Below are positions 5,007 through 23,762 of a stretch of DNA of 23,762 nucleotides, one piece after another; the first letter of the stretch is position 1, and the number at the start of each line of letters is the position of its first letter. A model generated the notes under the pieces. The model made no database searches, was not told the origin of the DNA, and saw only the letters and a list, made by a program, of their open reading frames with translations. Source of the stretch: a virus. The translations under genes were made by a program, and so were the position numbers. Location of the stretch: positions 1-23,762 of IMG/VR virus record IMGVR_UViG_3300027985_000055; one strand, given 5' to 3'.

Positions 5007-7355
5007 ATGGCAATCAGCAATCATGTGCTTGAAGGTAGCATACCCTCTTTATTACAGGGTGTATCCCAACAGGTTCCGAGAGAACGTTTAGATGGGCAGG
5101 TTGGTATCCAAGTCAACATGGTTAGTGATGTGGTGAATGGGATGCGTAGACGCCCCGGAGCCCGTATGCTAAAGGCAGACGTCCTTAATGGTGCTACTCT
5201 TGTTACATCTAAAATCTACTGTGCTTATCACTCAGCAGGTGGTATAGGCAGACACGTTATAGTTAATACATCCACAGGTAAGTTAGAAGTATTCGATAAT
5301 ACCTTTACTTCTTTAGGCAGTTTAACAAATGCGTATCTGCAATCTGTTACTGCACAGAACATCCAATCTATATCTTTACGCGGTCGTGTGTATGTAGTAA
5401 ATACCGAAGTAATTCCTACCGGTAATATATCTAATAGTGGTAAACAGAATCCCAATTTAACGGGGTTCTTTTTTATCAAAACAGGCGCATACAGCAAGAC
5501 CTATTCAGTTAATATCACAACCTCAGGTGGTACTTACACAGTAAGTTACACAACCCCTGATGGTACAACTGCAGGCGATGCAGCATTATCCACACCAACC
5601 TATATTGCAACTCAATTAGTCAATGCCATTAATGCTAAAGGCACCCCTTTCGTAACACCATCTCAAAGCAGTGGTTATGTCTTCCTTATTTGTACAGGTA
5701 GTTATAATACCCTGACAGTAAGTACTGACTCTGGTATATCTTATATGAGTGCCAGTAACCAAAGTTCGGTATCCTTAGTATCCGACCTACCTGCACTGTT
5801 ACCTACAGCAGGGTATAACTGTATGTGTGCAGTAGGCTCTACTGTAAGAACCGCAGTATGGTACAGGTACAATGGTGCTACAGGTGTATGGCTAGAGGAT
5901 TCTGCATGGAATAGTATTACCTCCATTACTAATATCTGCGTCTCTTATAGCTTATATGGCTCAGTGGATATTCAGTTAGAGACAGGAGAAGGTCGTCTAG
6001 CTGGTTCTGATGAGACGAATGAGAATCCTGCTTTCTTAGATGTGGGGATAACGGGCCTCAGTGCATACCAAGGTAGGCTAGTTCTACTATGTGGTTCCGA
6101 GGTAGTCATGAGTGCTGCTGGTAAGCCTATGCGATTCTATCGTAGCACAGTAACAGAACTACTTGATGAAGACCCTATTGGTATTATGGCTGGTGGTGCA
6201 AGCGCAGCAGACTTCATGTATGCAATGCAGTTCAACCGAGACTTGCTGCTATTCAGTAGCACCTGTCAGGCTGTAATTCCCGGCACTAACGTCCCTATCT
6301 CGCCTAGCACTGCGCAGATTGTATTGACCTCAAGTTATGCAGGTGATAACAACTCTAGTCCTGTTGATACTGGTCGAAGCATCATGTTCCCTGTACCTAT
6401 CTCTGGAGCCTTCGCAGGCTTCTTTGAAATGATTCCTAGTAACTACACAGCATCTCAGTACACCTCACTCGATATAACTCAGCATATACCTAAGTACATG
6501 CCGGGACGTGTCTTGAAGTGCGTAGGTAGTACCAACGTTGGTATGCTCTTGAGTATCTGCTCAGGAGACAGTATTGGGCTGTATGTTCACCAGTTCAAAT
6601 GGAACAATGAGACTAAGATACAAGGTGCATGGCATAGATGGGAGATGCCTTATCCGATAGCATCCGTATGGTTTGCTGATGACACTATCATTGTGGCTTT
6701 GAATGCAAATGGTAAGTTAGCATTAGTAACAGTGGAACTGCAGACAGGTACAACCATCAATGGACTGTACAGACCACTATCAGACATCTATCAATCAGTA
6801 ACAGTAACCAATGGTCAATTCACCGTACCAGAGGTTCTAAGAAGCGCTTACAACTCAGGCTATGATATCCTATTGACCTATACCTCAGGAACGCTCTCAG
6901 GGGCGGAGGCTGGCGTAGAGAGCATTAATACTAGTACATGGGTAGGTACAGTGCTACGTAATATACCAGATGGTACGTACTTCATTGGATTAGACTACAC
7001 GAGTGTGCTTAGTCCTACTGCGCCTGTACTAAAAGACCAAGATGGGAATGTATTTGGTATGGATGCTACGCTAGTACGCTACATCCTACATACCGTAGAT
7101 ACAGGTGAGTTCGACGTGTACATCTACAACAGTGCCCTAGATTTAGTATCTGAAACACTGTCCCCTGTGTATAATGCTTCCCCTGATTTACAAATTGATT
7201 ACCCATTGATAGGTACGCTACAGGATATTCCAATCTCTGTACATAGTGTCTCTCAAGATACAACAACGATATTCTCATGTAGTGGAGCATCTCAGATGTG
7301 CTTCTTAGGCATAGACTATATCATGCGGTATTATCCACGAAGAAGGAGAGTCTAA
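5007..7355 (+). CDS. tail tubular protein B (T7 gp12-like nozzle)
   Basis: At 782 residues it is nearly the size of T7 gp12 (794). The N-terminal SIPSLLQGVSQQVPRERLDG and DVVNGMRRRPGARM segments are the diagnostic motifs of T7 nozzle proteins. Much of the rest is Ser/Thr/Gly-rich and consistent with a beta-propeller. Later motifs such as YQGRLVLLCGSEVVMSAAGK and MQFNRDLLLFSSTCQAVI are also family-typical. It forms the distal tail tube that closes the particle and carries fibres. The stop overlaps the ATG of the next gene by one base. Confidence 0.94.
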   Translation: MAISNHVLEGSIPSLLQGVSQQVPRERLDGQVGIQVNMVSDVVNGMRRRPGARMLKADVLNGATLVTSKIYCAYHSAGGIGRHVIVNTSTGKLEVFDNTFTSLGSLTNAYLQSVTAQNIQSISLRGRVYVVNTEVIPTGNISNSGKQNPNLTGFFFIKTGAYSKTYSVNITTSGGTYTVSYTTPDGTTAGDAALSTPTYIATQLVNAINAKGTPFVTPSQSSGYVFLICTGSYNTLTVSTDSGISYMSASNQSSVSLVSDLPALLPTAGYNCMCAVGSTVRTAVWYRYNGATGVWLEDSAWNSITSITNICVSYSLYGSVDIQLETGEGRLAGSDETNENPAFLDVGITGLSAYQGRLVLLCGSEVVMSAAGKPMRFYRSTVTELLDEDPIGIMAGGASAADFMYAMQFNRDLLLFSSTCQAVIPGTNVPISPSTAQIVLTSSYAGDNNSSPVDTGRSIMFPVPISGAFAGFFEMIPSNYTASQYTSLDITQHIPKYMPGRVLKCVGSTNVGMLLSICSGDSIGLYVHQFKWNNETKIQGAWHRWEMPYPIASVWFADDTIIVALNANGKLALVTVELQTGTTINGLYRPLSDIYQSVTVTNGQFTVPEVLRSAYNSGYDILLTYTSGTLSGAEAGVESINTSTWVGTVLRNIPDGTYFIGLDYTSVLSPTAPVLKDQDGNVFGMDATLVRYILHTVDTGEFDVYIYNSALDLVSETLSPVYNASPDLQIDYPLIGTLQDIPISVHSVSQDTTTIFSCSGASQMCFLGIDYIMRYYPRRRRV

Positions 7356-7888
7356 TGTCTGCGACTCAAGGCCAATTGGCTCAAGCTACAGCTTCTTTGG
7401 GTACTTCCTTATTCGCTGGTATGGCAAAGGTAAAGAATGCCCAAGCGCAAGAAGCTCAGACGAATGAGCAAATCAAAATCTATAACAAGCAGCTTCTTCA
7501 AAAGAATGCTGAAGATATTAATGCTATCCAACTGCAACGGTCTGTATCTAGAATGCAGACCGTACAGGCTCTCTTTGCTGTAGAGCGTAAACGGGTAGAG
7601 GAAGTATCTGCTAAGAACACAATGCTGGCAGCTACCGATACAGTAGGTGCCAGTGCACGTCAATCTATAATGGCAGCAGAGGCGGCAGCCGAGGAATCAA
7701 AGAACGTATACATTCTGAATCAAAGACTTACTGAAGAGTCCCTAGATGCTCAGATTGGTTATACTACCTCATCTACTAAGTACTCACTGCAACAACTTAA
7801 ATACGGTGCAGGTAAAGCAGCAGCTAACGAGGCTAGTGCTGCAAACTTCGGGGCTATTATGAATCTCGCTGCAGTCGCTATGTTATAA
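7355..7888 (+). CDS. internal virion protein, gp14-like
   Basis: I chose ATG 7355 (GAAGGAGAG upstream, one-base overlap with the preceding stop) over the ATG at 7298, giving 177 residues (T7 gp14: 196). The protein is Ala/Gln-rich and helical with a long central region without aromatic residues, and a C-terminal segment (ASAANFGAIMNLAAVAML) that is hydrophobic enough to insert in a membrane. In T7, gp14 is ejected first and forms the outer-membrane part of the DNA ejection channel. Identification rests mainly on position before two large internal proteins and on composition. Confidence 0.75.
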   Translation: MSATQGQLAQATASLGTSLFAGMAKVKNAQAQEAQTNEQIKIYNKQLLQKNAEDINAIQLQRSVSRMQTVQALFAVERKRVEEVSAKNTMLAATDTVGASARQSIMAAEAAAEESKNVYILNQRLTEESLDAQIGYTTSSTKYSLQQLKYGAGKAAANEASAANFGAIMNLAAVAML

Positions 7889-7899
7889 TGGAGTAATGT

Positions 7900-10602
7900 A
7901 TGCCCTTCTTAACTAGACAAAACATACAGTCTCAGCAGCAAGCACCACAGATTGCTAACGTGCAATTTCCGGGGGGTGCTACGCCACAGCTAAAGCAATC
8001 TCCCGAAACCCTTTCTAATGATGGTTTGTTTTGGGCTAGTCTTGCAAGTGGCTTAATGAATGCTGGTGCTGAGTACGTTAAAAGCTCAGAAGCTGATGCT
8101 TATATTCGTGGACAGGAAGATAGTACTGCTGGCAGGGAGATGCAAGCACAAAGCTTTATAGATACACTCGCATACAAGGAAGGTTACAATAAGATAACCA
8201 GAGCTAATCAGGTAGCTACCATGAAGCTGGAAGGTCAGCAAATGGCTTATGATTATGCTATGCAGGGTAAGGATACTGCTACCTTCTTACAAGACTATGA
8301 GAAGAAACAACAAGAGCTACTTCAAAAGGCAGAGCAAGATGGATTGAATCTTCGTAGAGAAGACCACCAAGCTTTCGTACAAGAGATAGCTCAGGCTAAA
8401 TTCTCAGCACAGAAAACATTTAGTGATACAAGCCGTGGGCATATAGTCAACCTGAATATGCAGGCTATCAATCGAGAACTCAATGCTGGTATTAACGATG
8501 TACGTATGTCAGCACCCGCTCGGAAGGCAGAGCTACTCGACAATATGTTGATTCGTATCAATTCTGATGTCATGCTCACAGACCCAGCTAGAGAGGGTGT
8601 TACTGCGAGTCTATTCAGTGGCCTCTTATCTAATATGGATTCCAAGGAAGATGTACAGTGGGCTATTGACCATGTTACTAAATTGGAAGAGTTCACCAGC
8701 TTACCAATGGAACAGCAATCTAGCATCCTACGAGTAGCACAGACATCGTATGAGCAACAGGCTCAACGTGAATCTGGTATTGCTTACAGTACTGCCTTTG
8801 CATTTAATAATGCTCAGACTCTCCAAGAATTCGATACTCAGTTTCCACAGTCTCAAGTGTTTGCTATGATGGATAATGCTACTAATAGTAAAGTTATCTC
8901 TCAGGCAACCAGCTACAGCTTAAAGCAACAGTACATGGCTAAACGCGAAGAACTGATAAAGGCTCAGAAGACGAACTTGCAGTTTACTAGTGGTACGATT
9001 CTGGATGTTGCTTCCTATTCAGGCAGGGCAGTAGAACCTACTACAAGTGCTGCAGTAGAATGGTATGCGTCTAGACCGAGAGAAGATGGGCGTCCGTTAG
9101 GCTATGCTCGTGGTGGTTTAGCAATGTTCATTGATGGTATGATGTTTCAGGATGGTATCAGAAAACAGACTGGTATCATGATGCTTAATAAAGTTCTGGA
9201 CAACTTAACCTCCATGGATGTTAGTGAACTCAAGTATGATAAAGATGGAAATCCTATAGTACGTGAAGACATTGCAGATGCTATGTATTCTGTACAGCAA
9301 ATGTGGGAAAGACTACCACCTAATAATCGTAGTCTTATATTGAAAGACCTTCCTAATGCAGTTCGCTATGGACTTATGCAGGGGGTAGATAATCGGTCAT
9401 TGCTTACAGTTATCCTATCTCGTCAGGCACAGATAAACCGACATCAAGTTAATGAGCATCCAGCTACCCTACCTGATAAGAATAAGTTCACCTCTGATGA
9501 ACTGCTTAAAGGTTGGACAGATTGGGGATTCTCAGATACCAGTACAGTGCGTAGAGCTATGGGTGTTAATGCCCCTTTATGGGCATCTGGAGATGAGACT
9601 AAAGCTGCACGTATGTTAGCTGCACCTTATAATGCAATCCTTGGTTCTAAGTATGCTCAGGCTGTAATGTCTGGTGATGTCTTATCCGATGCAGACGATA
9701 CAGCGGCAGAGATTAAACTACAAATGGCTGGTGATACAGTGCGTGTAGACAATGGTACAGAAGATGGTATGTTTGTAATGCTATCTAATATGCCAATGAA
9801 TAAACGCAAAGAAGGTTTAGGTACAACTGCAAATGATATCCTAGCTGAAGCACTGGCTCCTAAAATGAAAGAGTTGGCTGCACAGTATCCGAGTGCTGTA
9901 GCTACTGTACTCGATTATGATGAGACTACAGATGCGTTTAACATTATGATGTATGACGCTAGAGGTCAACAGTTTATTGCTGACTCTATTCGTCAGGATG
10001 ATATCAAACGAGAAGTTACTACATTTCAACAACAATTGAATAACACCTTCGCTCCTAAAGCATGGCAGTCACCTGCTTATGTCCCGGGTGCTGGTGGCAT
10101 GGTAACTCTAGATACACGTAATACGTGGGGTATCCCAAGCAATCAAGCCTACGATATGATGTCGTGGATTATCCACTTTGAAGGTTATACACCAGAGAAA
10201 GGTTTCAGTATATTAGAATCTCAGAATCCTAAGTACTCTAAAGCTTGGAATGATACACCTCAAATGGCAGCTAATAAGTTCTCAGCCTTCATGGAAGATT
10301 TCGTGTACCCTAAAGTACATGAACAAATGAAAGGCTATAAGAGACTTCCACAGATTCTTCAGAATAACTTGCGAGTTGTACTTGGAGAGTCAACTTACCA
10401 TGCCGGTAATTCACAAGCCTTTGGTAAGTATGTTGATAGAATTATTCGAGGAGAAGGCTACAACAACGTGGCCCGAGACTTCCTTAGTTCAAATGAGGCA
10501 TTCATTAGACAAGGTATGAAACAGAATGGAGAGCCTGCAGAACGTAACCTATTCCGTTTACAGATTCTACAAGATATAGATACCTTCATGAAAGGCCAAT
10601 AA
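7900..10602 (+). CDS. internal virion protein, gp15-like
   Basis: The 900-residue product is larger than T7 gp15 (747) and occupies its position. The N-terminus has a Gln/Pro-rich leader, then a LFWASLASGLMNAGAEYV segment and long charged helical stretches (for example DYEKKQQELLQKAEQDGLNL near residues 130-150), as in periplasmic ejectosome proteins. I see no catalytic motif. ATG 7900 is preceded by GGAG. It should stack in the capsid core and, after ejection, build the periplasmic tunnel with the gp16-like protein. Confidence 0.78.
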   Translation: MPFLTRQNIQSQQQAPQIANVQFPGGATPQLKQSPETLSNDGLFWASLASGLMNAGAEYVKSSEADAYIRGQEDSTAGREMQAQSFIDTLAYKEGYNKITRANQVATMKLEGQQMAYDYAMQGKDTATFLQDYEKKQQELLQKAEQDGLNLRREDHQAFVQEIAQAKFSAQKTFSDTSRGHIVNLNMQAINRELNAGINDVRMSAPARKAELLDNMLIRINSDVMLTDPAREGVTASLFSGLLSNMDSKEDVQWAIDHVTKLEEFTSLPMEQQSSILRVAQTSYEQQAQRESGIAYSTAFAFNNAQTLQEFDTQFPQSQVFAMMDNATNSKVISQATSYSLKQQYMAKREELIKAQKTNLQFTSGTILDVASYSGRAVEPTTSAAVEWYASRPREDGRPLGYARGGLAMFIDGMMFQDGIRKQTGIMMLNKVLDNLTSMDVSELKYDKDGNPIVREDIADAMYSVQQMWERLPPNNRSLILKDLPNAVRYGLMQGVDNRSLLTVILSRQAQINRHQVNEHPATLPDKNKFTSDELLKGWTDWGFSDTSTVRRAMGVNAPLWASGDETKAARMLAAPYNAILGSKYAQAVMSGDVLSDADDTAAEIKLQMAGDTVRVDNGTEDGMFVMLSNMPMNKRKEGLGTTANDILAEALAPKMKELAAQYPSAVATVLDYDETTDAFNIMMYDARGQQFIADSIRQDDIKREVTTFQQQLNNTFAPKAWQSPAYVPGAGGMVTLDTRNTWGIPSNQAYDMMSWIIHFEGYTPEKGFSILESQNPKYSKAWNDTPQMAANKFSAFMEDFVYPKVHEQMKGYKRLPQILQNNLRVVLGESTYHAGNSQAFGKYVDRIIRGEGYNNVARDFLSSNEAFIRQGMKQNGEPAERNLFRLQILQDIDTFMKGQ

Positions 10603-19537: not shown

Positions 19538-22500
19538 ATGTCAGCTACCAAGGTAACAATACCTTTAATGGAAGTTGCAGCATTCGCTGGTACACTGTTA
19601 ACTGCTGCTACTGCTGCTCAAGCACGTACAGCATTGGGCACAGATAATGCCTCAAACTTAACAAGTGGCACAGTAGACGATGCTCGTCTTCCAGATACTA
19701 TTACATCCAGTGTTACGGGTAATGCTGGCACAGCAACTAAACTACAAACTGCCCGTACCTTATCCCTTAATGGAGATGCTACAGGCACCTCCTCTCCCTT
19801 TGATGGTTCAGCTAATAACTCTCTGACCATAGTCTTAGGTAATTCAGGTGTATCCGCTGGTGCCTATGGCTCAAACATTAATATTCCAACTATCACAGTA
19901 GACGCTAAAGGACGTGTAATTAGTGCCTCAGTTAATGCTGTGCGTACTGCCAGTACCACTCAGACTGGTGTAGTTCAGTTAAATACAAGCACAGGCAGCA
20001 CAAGCACCACTGAAGCCGCTACACCAAGCGCAGTGAAGACGGCGTATGACATCGCTGTAGCAGCCATACCTCTAGCTCAGAAGAGCGTAGCGAACGGCGT
20101 AGCCCCATTAGACGCGACAGGTAAGGTTCCTGCTGCAATGATTCCAGTAGAGGGCGCTGCAGAGCTCATTATATACGCAGATTATGCATCATTACCTGTA
20201 ACAGGCCTTGATTATCGGACTTGGAATGACAAGCGTATTTATGTTTGGCTCACAGATGCCTATTATGAGGTCTCACCTGTACAAGATAATGCACCATCAG
20301 CTACTAAATTGGAAACAGGTCGCACTATCTCGGTATCTGGTGATGCTACTGGTACATCCCCTACTTTTGATGGTACAGGAAACGTAACTATTCCAGTTGC
20401 AGTAGTGAATGATAGCCATAATCATAGCTCTGCAACCATTACGGACGCCACTTCAGCGAATACTCCAAGTACAATTGTTAAACGTGACACTGCTGGTAAC
20501 TTCTCAGCGAATGTAATCACAGCGAACTCATTCAATGGTAATGCTGTAACAGCTACTAAGTTCGCTACTGCACGCCAAATCAATGGTGTGAGCTTCGATG
20601 GTACTGCAAATATAACTGTATATGACAACACGAAGCAGGCAGCAAACTCGAACTTAACTGTATTAAGTGGAATTACACCAGCAACAGACAAGTTCATCTA
20701 CTTTACGGATGCTACTACACCTGCAATGGGTACAATCACTCCGTATGCTCGCACTATCTTAGATGATGTAGATGCAGTATCCGCAAGAACTACCCTTGGG
20801 GCACAGGCTGCAGACGCAACATTAACTGCAATGGCAGGTGTTGATACGAACGTAGATAAAATAATCTACTTCACAGGTGTAGATGCTGCATCATCTTGTG
20901 TATTGACATCCTTTGCACGTACTCTCTTAGATGATACGACTGCAACTGCTGCCCGTACAACATTAGGTGCACAGGCTTCGCATAGCCGATTGTCTAATCT
21001 AGCTGCAGTAGTAAATGTTAGCGGTTATAGATTATTAACTGCTACAAGTAATTATGGGGTAGCTGCATATACTATCACGTATGACTGGTTCGGTCTGTTT
21101 AGTCAAACACCTATAAATGCGTTAGAATCAATAGGTGTGCTGACCTTATCTAACTATAAAGCCAGTATTGGTATTGGGGTTGTTGGTGAACAAGTACTTT
21201 TCGCAGATACTATTGAAGAAGTACAGGCTATGCTAGGTTTAGAACCACCTACCACACTATTTGAGGATATTGGAGTTCCCGGTGAATTTGGATTTGGTGT
21301 GGGTATTACAGCTAGTCCACCTACTGGATATACAGAAACTGAAGGTTGTCGCTTCCCACATTCTAGTCAGTATGGTAATTACGTCAATACATACGGTGAT
21401 ATTAGTGTATGGGTTCCAAAATTCTATGCACGTATTGGTCATGTAGATAACCCTACTTATAGTACGCATGGTTTACAGAGTGTTGATATCGTACCTGCGA
21501 GCACCTATGCTAATAGAGCAGCGGCTGCAGTCGATGGTTACTTCCTACCACGTGCATTCATTAATGCTAGTACTGAAAAGTCTGGTATAATGATTGATAA
21601 GTACTTTGCTTCTGCAAGTGGTGATGGTATTGCGCATAGTAAAGCTTTAGTGCTACCTGTTCAAGCAGACCCTAGTTATAGTGAAGGGTATGGTTATACA
21701 CTAATCAATGCTGCATTTGAAGATACTATGGATTACGCCTTCCCTATTGCTAAGACTAGAGGTTCTGGTTATTTCCCATGTAATACGTTTGTACACTCAA
21801 TGCTTGGACTTATAGCACAAGCACATGCTCAGGCGAGCGTTAATGACTATGCATGTAAGTGGTGGGATGCCGCAGGAACTAATACCTTTATTAAAGGACA
21901 GGAAACACAGGGCTTGTATACTAATGACCCTGATGATACTTCCTTGACATGGGCTAATGACTCATACTATACTCACCTCACATTGTTAGGTACTTGTAAC
22001 CATCCAGCTAAGGTATCTCATAACGGTCAACTTAATGGTATTATGGATGTATGCGGTAGTTACAATAATGTAGCTATTGGTAGTAATATGATGGAAGCTG
22101 CTCGCTTGACTGCATCTAATATATCTAATACTAATCCAGTAGAAGTAACAACTACTGTAGCTCATGGTCTTGTTACTGGAGATGTTGTAAAAGTGTATGT
22201 GGGGTCATCCTTTGGTTTAACTAATCAAGGTTGGCATGTTACTGTAACAAGTACCACAACCTTCACAATAGATTACGATGCCTCTGGAAATGGTGCACCT
22301 TCAGCCGGGTCTGTATACACATACAAACACTGGATTCTAAAAGAATCTGTGGATGTTACTATGTTCACAGAGGGCACTTCTGATGCTACATCTTTCTTGA
22401 ATACAGCGAATCTAAGTACTTACTTTAATTACTATACACATCCATTCTATGGAGACAATACAGAGGATGTGTATGTAGGGGTGTCTGGAGAACAGATATA

Positions 22501-22774
22501 CTCAAGCGATAGCTCTGGTGCTGATTTTGAAATGTGTGCTGCTATGTGGCCTATGAGTGATAGTACTAATATTACACAGCTAGATATAGAACCTATGTAT
22601 ACTGATGCTATTATAAGTACTCGTAATAGTAGCAGCTACAGACTAGAGATTCCACTTACAGGTGCAGGGTACAATGGGTATAGTGATGAGGGTTGGAGTA
22701 TGTTCAGTATGTACTTATCAATGTACTCAGATACGTGGTATCCATACGCTGTGCGTTGCTGTACGTATGCGTAA
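19538..22774 (+). CDS. large tail fibre with C-type-lectin/FGE-like receptor-binding C-terminus
   Basis: The protein is 1078 residues with GAGG before ATG 19538. The N-terminal half is a repetitive shaft: ARTALGTDNASNLTSGTVDD, three ATKLxTAR...GDATGTxxFDG-type repeats (about residues 66, 255 and 343), an LDATGKVPAAMIP segment, and two ARTxLGAQA repeats (about 418 and 473). From about 574 the sequence changes to an aromatic, Gly/Asn-rich domain with VWVPKFYARIG, then SHNGQLNGIMDVCG at 827-840 and a C-terminal block 1042-1078 ending in AVRCCTYA. These are the order and landmarks of the formylglycine-enzyme/C-type-lectin fold in phage receptor-binding proteins. A beta-barrel-like insertion (856-932) interrupts it. 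It most likely decides host range, attached through the short fibre at 14806-15498. Confidence 0.85.
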   Translation: MSATKVTIPLMEVAAFAGTLLTAATAAQARTALGTDNASNLTSGTVDDARLPDTITSSVTGNAGTATKLQTARTLSLNGDATGTSSPFDGSANNSLTIVLGNSGVSAGAYGSNINIPTITVDAKGRVISASVNAVRTASTTQTGVVQLNTSTGSTSTTEAATPSAVKTAYDIAVAAIPLAQKSVANGVAPLDATGKVPAAMIPVEGAAELIIYADYASLPVTGLDYRTWNDKRIYVWLTDAYYEVSPVQDNAPSATKLETGRTISVSGDATGTSPTFDGTGNVTIPVAVVNDSHNHSSATITDATSANTPSTIVKRDTAGNFSANVITANSFNGNAVTATKFATARQINGVSFDGTANITVYDNTKQAANSNLTVLSGITPATDKFIYFTDATTPAMGTITPYARTILDDVDAVSARTTLGAQAADATLTAMAGVDTNVDKIIYFTGVDAASSCVLTSFARTLLDDTTATAARTTLGAQASHSRLSNLAAVVNVSGYRLLTATSNYGVAAYTITYDWFGLFSQTPINALESIGVLTLSNYKASIGIGVVGEQVLFADTIEEVQAMLGLEPPTTLFEDIGVPGEFGFGVGITASPPTGYTETEGCRFPHSSQYGNYVNTYGDISVWVPKFYARIGHVDNPTYSTHGLQSVDIVPASTYANRAAAAVDGYFLPRAFINASTEKSGIMIDKYFASASGDGIAHSKALVLPVQADPSYSEGYGYTLINAAFEDTMDYAFPIAKTRGSGYFPCNTFVHSMLGLIAQAHAQASVNDYACKWWDAAGTNTFIKGQETQGLYTNDPDDTSLTWANDSYYTHLTLLGTCNHPAKVSHNGQLNGIMDVCGSYNNVAIGSNMMEAARLTASNISNTNPVEVTTTVAHGLVTGDVVKVYVGSSFGLTNQGWHVTVTSTTTFTIDYDASGNGAPSAGSVYTYKHWILKESVDVTMFTEGTSDATSFLNTANLSTYFNYYTHPFYGDNTEDVYVGVSGEQIYSSDSSGADFEMCAAMWPMSDSTNITQLDIEPMYTDAIISTRNSSSYRLEIPLTGAGYNGYSDEGWSMFSMYLSMYSDTWYPYAVRCCTYA

Positions 22775-22785
22775 TAGGAGGTGTT

Positions 22786-23145
22786 ATGATTTATAAAGTC
22801 GAGGCTAAGGGAAACGTCCACCGTAAGTACAATTTCCCTGAAGAGACGAAACGTGTACTCAAGACTCCAGAGTTCAAGTACTACTACGTGCCTGATGATA
22901 AGACTGAGGGGGTAACAGCCCCCTTAGCTACTGAAGATGAGGTCAAGAGTATCAAGAATCTCAGTAGTGTTAGTACTGGTAGTGATAAGCTCACTGCTGA
23001 TGAGATACGGAAGCAGTACTCGCTAGAGGAAGAGTTGCGTTGTCTACGTCTCGGTAGAGGCACTGAAGAGTTCAGATTGTACAATGAGTACGTCGAGCAG
23101 TGTGTTGCTCAGGGCAAAGCTCGCAAGCGGAAGTTCGGTCTGTAG
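22786..23145 (+). CDS. protein of unknown function at the end of the gene block
   Basis: ATG 22786 has a strong GGAGGT, giving 119 residues. The N-terminus (MIYKVEAKGNVHRKYNFPEE) is followed by a linker rich in Ser/Thr and a helical, charged C-terminus (EELRCLRLGRGTEEFRLYNE) ending in a basic KARKRKFGL. It follows the fibre gene by 11 bases, so it could be a fibre assembly helper or a right-end protein like T7 gp19.5 (49 residues), but there is no motif to decide. Its last codons are part of a 12-bp tandem repeat that continues past the stop. Confidence 0.75.
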   Translation: MIYKVEAKGNVHRKYNFPEETKRVLKTPEFKYYYVPDDKTEGVTAPLATEDEVKSIKNLSSVSTGSDKLTADEIRKQYSLEEELRCLRLGRGTEEFRLYNEYVEQCVAQGKARKRKFGL

Positions 23146-23167
23146 TTCAGTCTGTAGTTCGGCTTGG
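23132..23167 (+). repeat. 12-bp tandem repeat, three copies, spanning a stop codon
   Basis: AGTTCGGTCTGT (23132-23143), AGTTCAGTCTGT (23144-23155) and AGTTCGGCTTGG (23156-23167) are consecutive. The first two differ by one base, the third by three. The stop codon TAG (23143-23145) sits at the first junction. Confidence 0.85.
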
Positions 23168-23188
23168 AGTGAGCTGCTAGATTTTTTC
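23159..23188 (+). terminator. weak possible terminator after the last gene
   Basis: A short CGGCT/AGCTG stem (one G-T) with a 7-base loop is followed a few bases later by a run of six T; a second T6 run follows at about 23200. The stem is weak, so this is only a candidate for the end of the late transcript. Confidence 0.3.
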
Positions 23189-23240
23189 AGAATGATTTTT
23201 TGTTGTAGTAGTGCGTGGGTGTCCCTCCACCTTTGAGGCC

Positions 23241-23267
23241 TGCGATTCCCCCCATCGGGGTCTCGCA
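23241..23267 (+). other. GC-rich hairpin at start of the repeat region
   Basis: TGCGA (23241-23245) pairs with TCGCA (23263-23267) and CCCC (23248-23251) with GGGG (23257-23260), with a 2x2 internal loop and a 5-base loop. No T-run follows. Confidence 0.5.
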
Positions 23268-23440
23268 CACGCACACGCGAACGGGCGCACACACGCGTAC
23301 ACACGCGCGTAGCCTGCGCGTAGCGCACGTACGCGAGCTTTCAGGACGCAGGCGCACGTGTGCACACGCTCACGCACGTACACGCTCACGTACACACGCG
23401 CACAGGCACGCTCACACGTGCACGCACGCAGGCGCGGGGA
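23263..23440. repeat. GC-rich alternating pyrimidine-purine tract (Z-DNA-prone)
   Basis: The tract is built almost wholly of CA, CG and TA steps, with an uninterrupted alternation of 27 bases at 23285-23311 and others of 15-20 bases. ACACGCTCACG occurs at 23364-23374 and again at 23380-23390, with a partial copy at 23407-23415. The tract differs sharply from the AT-leaning coding block. Confidence 0.75.
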
Positions 23441-23453
23441 GGAGGTTTGCTTG

Positions 23454-23473
23454 CCTTCTTTCGCCTTCTTTCG
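23454..23473 (+). repeat. 10-bp tandem repeat, two copies
   Basis: CCTTCTTTCG at 23454-23463 is repeated exactly at 23464-23473. Confidence 0.85.
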
Positions 23474-23486
23474 CATCGCACCCTAG

Positions 23487-23512
23487 CACACTCTCACACT
23501 CTCACACTCTCA
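23487..23512 (+). repeat. 8-bp tandem repeat, three copies
   Basis: CACACTCT occurs three times in a row (23487-23510) with two more bases of a fourth copy; an isolated copy lies at 23559-23566. Confidence 0.85.
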
Positions 23513-23602
23513 GGGCGCAGGCGTACACACACGTACACGTACACGCACGTGATAGACTCACACTCTACGCTTGTCAACGTACTAACTTACTGTGTATTCA
23601 TA

Positions 23603-23661
23603 CATACTGTACATACTGTACATACTGTACATACTGTACATACTGTACATACTGTACATAC
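23603..23661 (+). repeat. 9-bp tandem array, six and a half copies
   Basis: CATACTGTA is repeated exactly six times (23603-23656) and followed by CATAC. Each junction creates the palindrome TGTACA, so the array is a set of regularly spaced small dyads, nine bases apart. It may correspond to the short-repeat arrays beside the terminal repeat in T7-like phages, or be a protein-binding array. Confidence 0.92.
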
Positions 23662-23682
23662 AACCAGTTCCAATCAAGGTGT

Positions 23683-23702
23683 AGTGTGACTTGTATCACA
23701 CT
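23683..23702. promoter_or_regulatory. perfect CRP-type dyad (TGTGA-N6-TCACA)
   Basis: AGTGTGA (23683-23689) and TCACACT (23696-23702) form a perfect 7-bp inverted repeat with a 6-base spacer. The core matches both half sites of the E. coli CRP consensus exactly. No clear -35/-10 pair is seen next to it inside the window, so function is uncertain; it could also be a simple hairpin. Confidence 0.5.
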
Positions 23703-23731
23703 CCCGCTTTCCCTGTGCTTCCCTAGGGGCT

Positions 23732-23749
23732 CCGACCATTACAGGTCGG
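23732..23749. other. 6-bp dyad near the window end
   Basis: CCGACC (23732-23737) pairs with GGTCGG (23744-23749) around ATTACA. The palindrome CCCTAGGG lies just before it at 23721-23728. Such dyads are common in terminal-repeat regions of T7-like phages. Confidence 0.45.
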
Positions 23750-23762
23750 GTCGCTCGGGACT

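Follow-up and report, generated by a model that had tools for sequence, protein, structure and literature searches.

TaqVP is the variable protein of a diversity-generating retroelement (DGR) in a Thermus aquaticus prophage (PDB 5vf4; PMC6328139). In the DGR of a Helicobacter ganmani prophage (BK070120.1), the target gene, Avd, template repeat (TR) and reverse transcriptase (RT) are arranged in a row. Its Avd scores above the cut-off for bAvd and below that of NF033474, and along the 113 nt match between its variable region (VR) and TR every mismatch falls at a TR adenine. In the passages of the literature consulted, one of which concerns a DGR in P2-like phages, no DGR is described in a phiKMV-like phage or elsewhere in the Autographiviridae. 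Here we compare these systems with a tail fibre encoded on a 23,762-base linear virus record (the window, i.e., the whole stretch of DNA that was analysed), the C-terminus of which had been proposed in an earlier note to be a C-type-lectin target of a DGR.

The window covers the late half of a phage genome. Its portal protein is 53% to 57% identical to those of Kantovirus and Kotilavirus (Autographiviridae, Corkvirinae), and it also encodes a nozzle protein, internal virion proteins and a T7-type terminase. Its gene order is shared with Pectobacterium phage PP16, where the terminase gene is followed by those for Rz, holin, lysozyme and tail fibre/spike and then by the terminal repeat. The gene order, the portal, nozzle and internal virion proteins and the terminase type are all as in Corkvirinae-like Autographiviridae and, judging from these sequences, the backbone is assigned to a phiKMV-like (Corkvirinae-like) autographivirus. 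The host is probably a gammaproteobacterium. The fibre gene occupies the last slot of the PP16 order, which suggests that the right genome end is probably near the end of the contig and that the early half is missing; of a 44-kb genome, roughly half is in the window, with the early half lying outside it. No near relatives were recovered by exact-peptide scans of IMG/VR using the lectin domain and the terminase as queries. At the right end of the window (23260-23661), a CA/CG-alternating stretch is followed by 6.8 copies of TACATACTG, where PP16 has a terminal repeat. This region had no match among phage records.

The tail fibre gene (19538..22774, + strand) encodes a protein of 1078 aa and is located in the terminal fibre/spike slot of the Corkvirinae-like genome, after the holin and endolysin genes and before the genome end. 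Residues 1-573 (19538..21256, +) form a shaft of tail-fibre repeats with a Phage_fiber_2 match at residues 139-179, and residues 574-1078 (21257..22771, +) form the C-terminal domain. The landmarks previously listed for this domain are located as described: residue 574 is encoded from position 21257, VWVPKFY and HNGQ (828) followed by GIMDVCG are at the residues given, and the protein ends in YPYAVRCCTYA. The 988 nt downstream of the gene (22775..23762) contain one ORF of 119 aa (22786-23145), immediately after the fibre gene, and then non-coding repeats. This ORF was tested as a candidate Avd and rejected. It has no relatives in phage records or family libraries.

An AlphaFold2 model of residues 574-1078, based on 60 aligned sequences, had a pLDDT of 81 and a pTM of 0.85, with low confidence in the VR segment (about 44-69 per ten residues). 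The top PDB match of this model using Foldseek is TaqVP (5vf4, 4e-11), to which it aligns with a Z of 27.3 over 302 residues at 3.4 A using VIA-align. The next structural matches are Mtd and formylglycine-generating enzyme (FGE), each with a Z of about 10, so that the likeness to FGE is below that to TaqVP. The predicted structure, which best matches TaqVP, then Mtd and FGE, bears out the proposal that a C-type-lectin/FGE fold begins at residue 574. Based on the model, the C-terminal 505 residues of the fibre are identified as a C-type-lectin domain of TaqVP type, an assignment that homologues of the domain also support. Residues 852-930 (22091..22327, +) form a barrel inserted into this domain that resembles the FCCH domain of ubiquitin E1 and phage tail-tube proteins. 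PF16190, which corresponds to the inserted barrel, matches 36 of the 60 aligned family members.

Matches to the domain were identified using tblastn (4e-28 to 1e-12) in Campylobacter phages, the Helicobacter ganmani prophage and a faecal phage, and a profile search matched hundreds of IMG/VR contigs and some bacterial contigs; there was no match in the plasmids searched. Eighty viral loci are 28% to 40% identical to it across most of its length. The domain has both the C-type-lectin fold and the homology along its length to DGR targets that define the TaqVP-like variable protein family. A phmmer search of the domain directly against the PDB returned nothing but a chance match, and no Pfam C-lectin or FGE model matches the fibre sequence. 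The lack of a Pfam match is in keeping with there being no C-type lectin here, the landmarks having arisen by chance in a Tyr/Ser-rich fibre tip, but the homology and fold results make that reading scarcely credible.

An RT (RVT_1, PF00078) is present in 42 of the 79 family IMG/VR records searched. We searched the family for repeats whose mismatches fall on template adenines and identified 76 distinct TR/VR pairs, in which nearly all mismatches are at template adenines. In the first set of 42 pairs, 36 of them distinct, 651 mismatches over 4,867 nt are at a template A and only 20 at other bases, and a second set added 40 further distinct pairs. The latter number is without the repeat of locus L296, which was not counted as a template since most of its mismatches are at bases other than adenine (24, against 12 at adenines). 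The L296 repeat consists of two 206 nt copies of a target 3' end (116-321 and 5137-5342), which are probably two related target genes rather than a target and its template. In the family, the VR runs from about 130 to about 10 nt before the end of the target gene, which is equivalent to about 22644-22764 of the window. First-set templates start 410-661 nt past the target stop codon and end by 773 nt, one second-set template (L235) ends 1,295 nt past it, and in 75 of the 76 distinct pairs the 988 nt that follow the stop codon contain the whole TR. VR and TR match over an unusual length in two Anaerobiospirillum loci, L235 (176 nt) and L248 (160 nt), and the template of the former is 1.1 kb downstream of its target. 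TR-like copies were also observed in two records with no RT, L080 (7173-7292 vs 7766-7885, mismatches at 10 A and 6 other bases) and L010 (7362-7436 vs 7950-8024, 5 A and 5 other); these are possibly decayed templates. The family TR/VR pairs support the view that the fibre domain is kin to DGR targets of canonical layout and that the VR belongs at the extreme C-terminus, where the earlier note had placed it.

We searched the window for the corresponding DGR components. There is no template for the VR equivalent of the fibre (22644..22771, +) in the window, including the 988 nt downstream of the fibre gene. The best template score in the window was 16.8, near the 11.8-15.8 of random segments of equal length, whereas the first-set family pairs that were counted score at least 73. 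A profile search of the window for copies of the domain detected the fibre only and no template copy; the same profile also detects the template copy in the Helicobacter record. Neither an RT nor an Avd was found in the window, which ends 988 nt past the fibre, so an RT could lie just beyond it. With the searches for an RT and for a template copy both empty, the earlier observation that the window lacks a reverse transcriptase and a template repeat holds.

The last 37 residues of the fibre had been described as dominated by Tyr, Ser, Met, Trp and Asp, and these five do make up 51% of the segment, compared with a mean of 27% in other 37-residue windows of the domain. The highest share in any of those other windows is 49%, so the compositional bias is genuine, though barely extreme. 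The associated claim of abundant TAC, AGT and GAT codons was correct for TAC (10.8% in the last 37 residues vs 3.0% in the remaining domain) and AGT (8.1% vs 3.8%) but not for GAT (5.4% vs 5.1%).

Codon third positions are more informative. Family members with a DGR keep C/T third bases at their variable columns because template codons are mostly AAC or AAT. At 17 variable columns, chosen from 36 family genes with a TR, the share of C/T third bases was 82-100% per gene in those 36 training genes (mean 0.89) and 71-100% per gene in an independent TR-bearing set (mean 0.87). In the window a C/T third base occurs in 8 of the 17 columns (47%), in a VR alignment that is less certain than among relatives because the window sits on a long branch of the family tree (2.2 changes per column); alignment shifts of up to 6 residues either way did not recover the bias. 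The binomial probability of this count is 2e-5 against 0.89, and an unremarkable 0.12 against the domain's own average, C/T third bases making up 64% of the rest of the domain. Third-position C/T is similarly 0.47 in a Campylobacter phage relative (a 178-kb genome without an RT) and 0.41 in locus L030, also without an RT. In most other relatives whose locus has no template the C/T bias persists, so the window differs from those as well. Furthermore, many family members lacking a TR or RT in their contig keep the fingerprint, so lost linkage alone is no proof of retirement. None of the features of a DGR target, namely a linked TR, an RT, an Avd and AAY-derived VR codons, was found in the window. 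The codon evidence suggests that recent mutagenic homing at the window VR is unlikely, and the best explanation of these sequence data is that the VR equivalent evolves like ordinary coding DNA.

The framework of the VR has also changed. A position that is Trp in 65 of 68 relatives is Tyr in the window, an Arg position (65/68) is Met, the Gly-Phe of the framework is Ala-Val, and there is an additional one-residue insertion. These altered positions are those that templates hold constant. The VR framework is likewise lost in L279 (4001-5506), which is on a 59-kb contig without an RT.

As half of the genome lies outside the window, we considered whether the fibre could be an active DGR target, with its RT and template in the unseen early half or in the host and acting in trans. 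Kinship to DGR targets and the position of the VR agree with such an arrangement, and DGRs with remote targets are a topic in the literature (the term occurs in PMC4891356 and PMC7517822). However, among 42 records that encode a related portal, some 29 of which are at least 40 kb long, no RT above cut-off was detected, the single sub-threshold match being to an 894-aa frame (E 0.004). Added to this, the third positions of the VR are unbiased (8/17), its framework residues are broken, and the template is just downstream of the target in 75 of 76 relatives. We consider an active target of this kind very unlikely. Slightly less credible still is trans diversification of the fibre tip of a lytic T7-like (phiKMV-type) phage by a distant DGR, in the early region or in the host, that uses non-AAY template codons. 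The same 42 backbone relatives contain no copy of the lectin domain, in a search where the domain profile detected the window and three known carriers as controls, which suggests that the domain was probably acquired from outside this phage group.

Overall, the fibre very probably carries a horizontally acquired lectin tip on a phiKMV-like fibre that is fixed and no longer (or never was) diversified by a DGR. The lack of both a template and a codon fingerprint makes the domain look like an ordinary fixed host-binding domain. A TaqVP-type lectin domain, of a family in which DGR variable proteins are common, would have been transferred horizontally to the fibre of a phiKMV-like phage, in which the domain would be unlinked to a DGR cassette. 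Host binding by the phage would then rely on a single, fixed lectin surface at the tip of the fibre, within a putative receptor-binding domain that also bears the inserted FCCH-like barrel, and the missing half of the genome would presumably be free of any DGR. The proposal that the segment is a DGR target therefore stands with respect to fold and kinship but fails for the segment as a present DGR product, given the missing template, the absent AAY fingerprint and the broken framework. Likewise, between the two alternatives that the proposal offered, a fixed descendant is the better fit, and an active target with machinery elsewhere is disfavoured by the lack of a template and the unbiased codons.

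A sub-case of this explanation, which likewise says that the fibre is not diversified now, is that the lineage never had a DGR, the lectin having first been an ordinary receptor-binding domain to which DGRs were coupled later in other branches. The Campylobacter phage relatives, with a 178-kb genome that lacks an RT, share the unbiased third positions (0.47), and their C-termini are near-identical between strains in two of three comparisons (98% identity over the last 45 residues, with 71% in the third). On the tree, the window also falls outside the main group of RT-bearing members, a weakly supported placement, but the Helicobacter relative with a full DGR is just as far out. RT presence is scattered over the tree (22 changes, equal to shuffled labels, with a few loci maybe scored as lacking an RT only through a short contig), which is compatible with repeated gain and loss in either case. 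We regard a lineage that never had a DGR as possible, though doubtful. With RTs scattered over the tree and the window on a long branch, the data are compatible with descent from a DGR target as well as with descent from a pre-DGR ancestor.

These results indicate that the TaqVP-type lectin scaffold is also in circulation, in this case on the fibre of a phiKMV-like phage, as a putative receptor-binding module that has no diversifier linked to it. They also caution that fold and composition alone are insufficient for calling a DGR target, and third-base bias at variable columns offers a simple sequence test that helps to tell diversified from undiversified copies. Among known systems, gp57 of phage PP16 shares the right-end genome slot after the lysis genes, but it is annotated as a tail fibre/spike with a polysaccharide deacetylase, and no lectin domain was found in the PP16 genome. 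Mtd of Bordetella phage BPP-1 is a receptor-binding tail protein that likewise has the C-type-lectin fold (Z about 10), but it is structurally far more distant than TaqVP and is diversified by a linked DGR. The Helicobacter ganmani prophage protein is about 31% identical over the N-terminal half of the domain and, unlike the window, belongs to a full cassette with VR/TR mismatches only at template adenines. TaqVP resembles the fibre tip in its C-type-lectin fold along the whole domain, in the location of the VR equivalent at the extreme C-terminus and in having inserts between core elements. Unlike TaqVP, the window has no TR, Avd or RT nearby and no AAY fingerprint in its VR codons, and an FCCH-like barrel is inserted in its domain, which forms the tip of a long fibre on a T7-like phage. 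The hypothetical protein of Campylobacter Firehammervirus phages (CP220, WX1, F379) is shorter, has no long repeat shaft and is only 26-28% identical. However, it has a homologous domain with unbiased third positions in phages of which WX1, like the window, has no RT, and it is the likeliest parallel for the state of the fibre described here.
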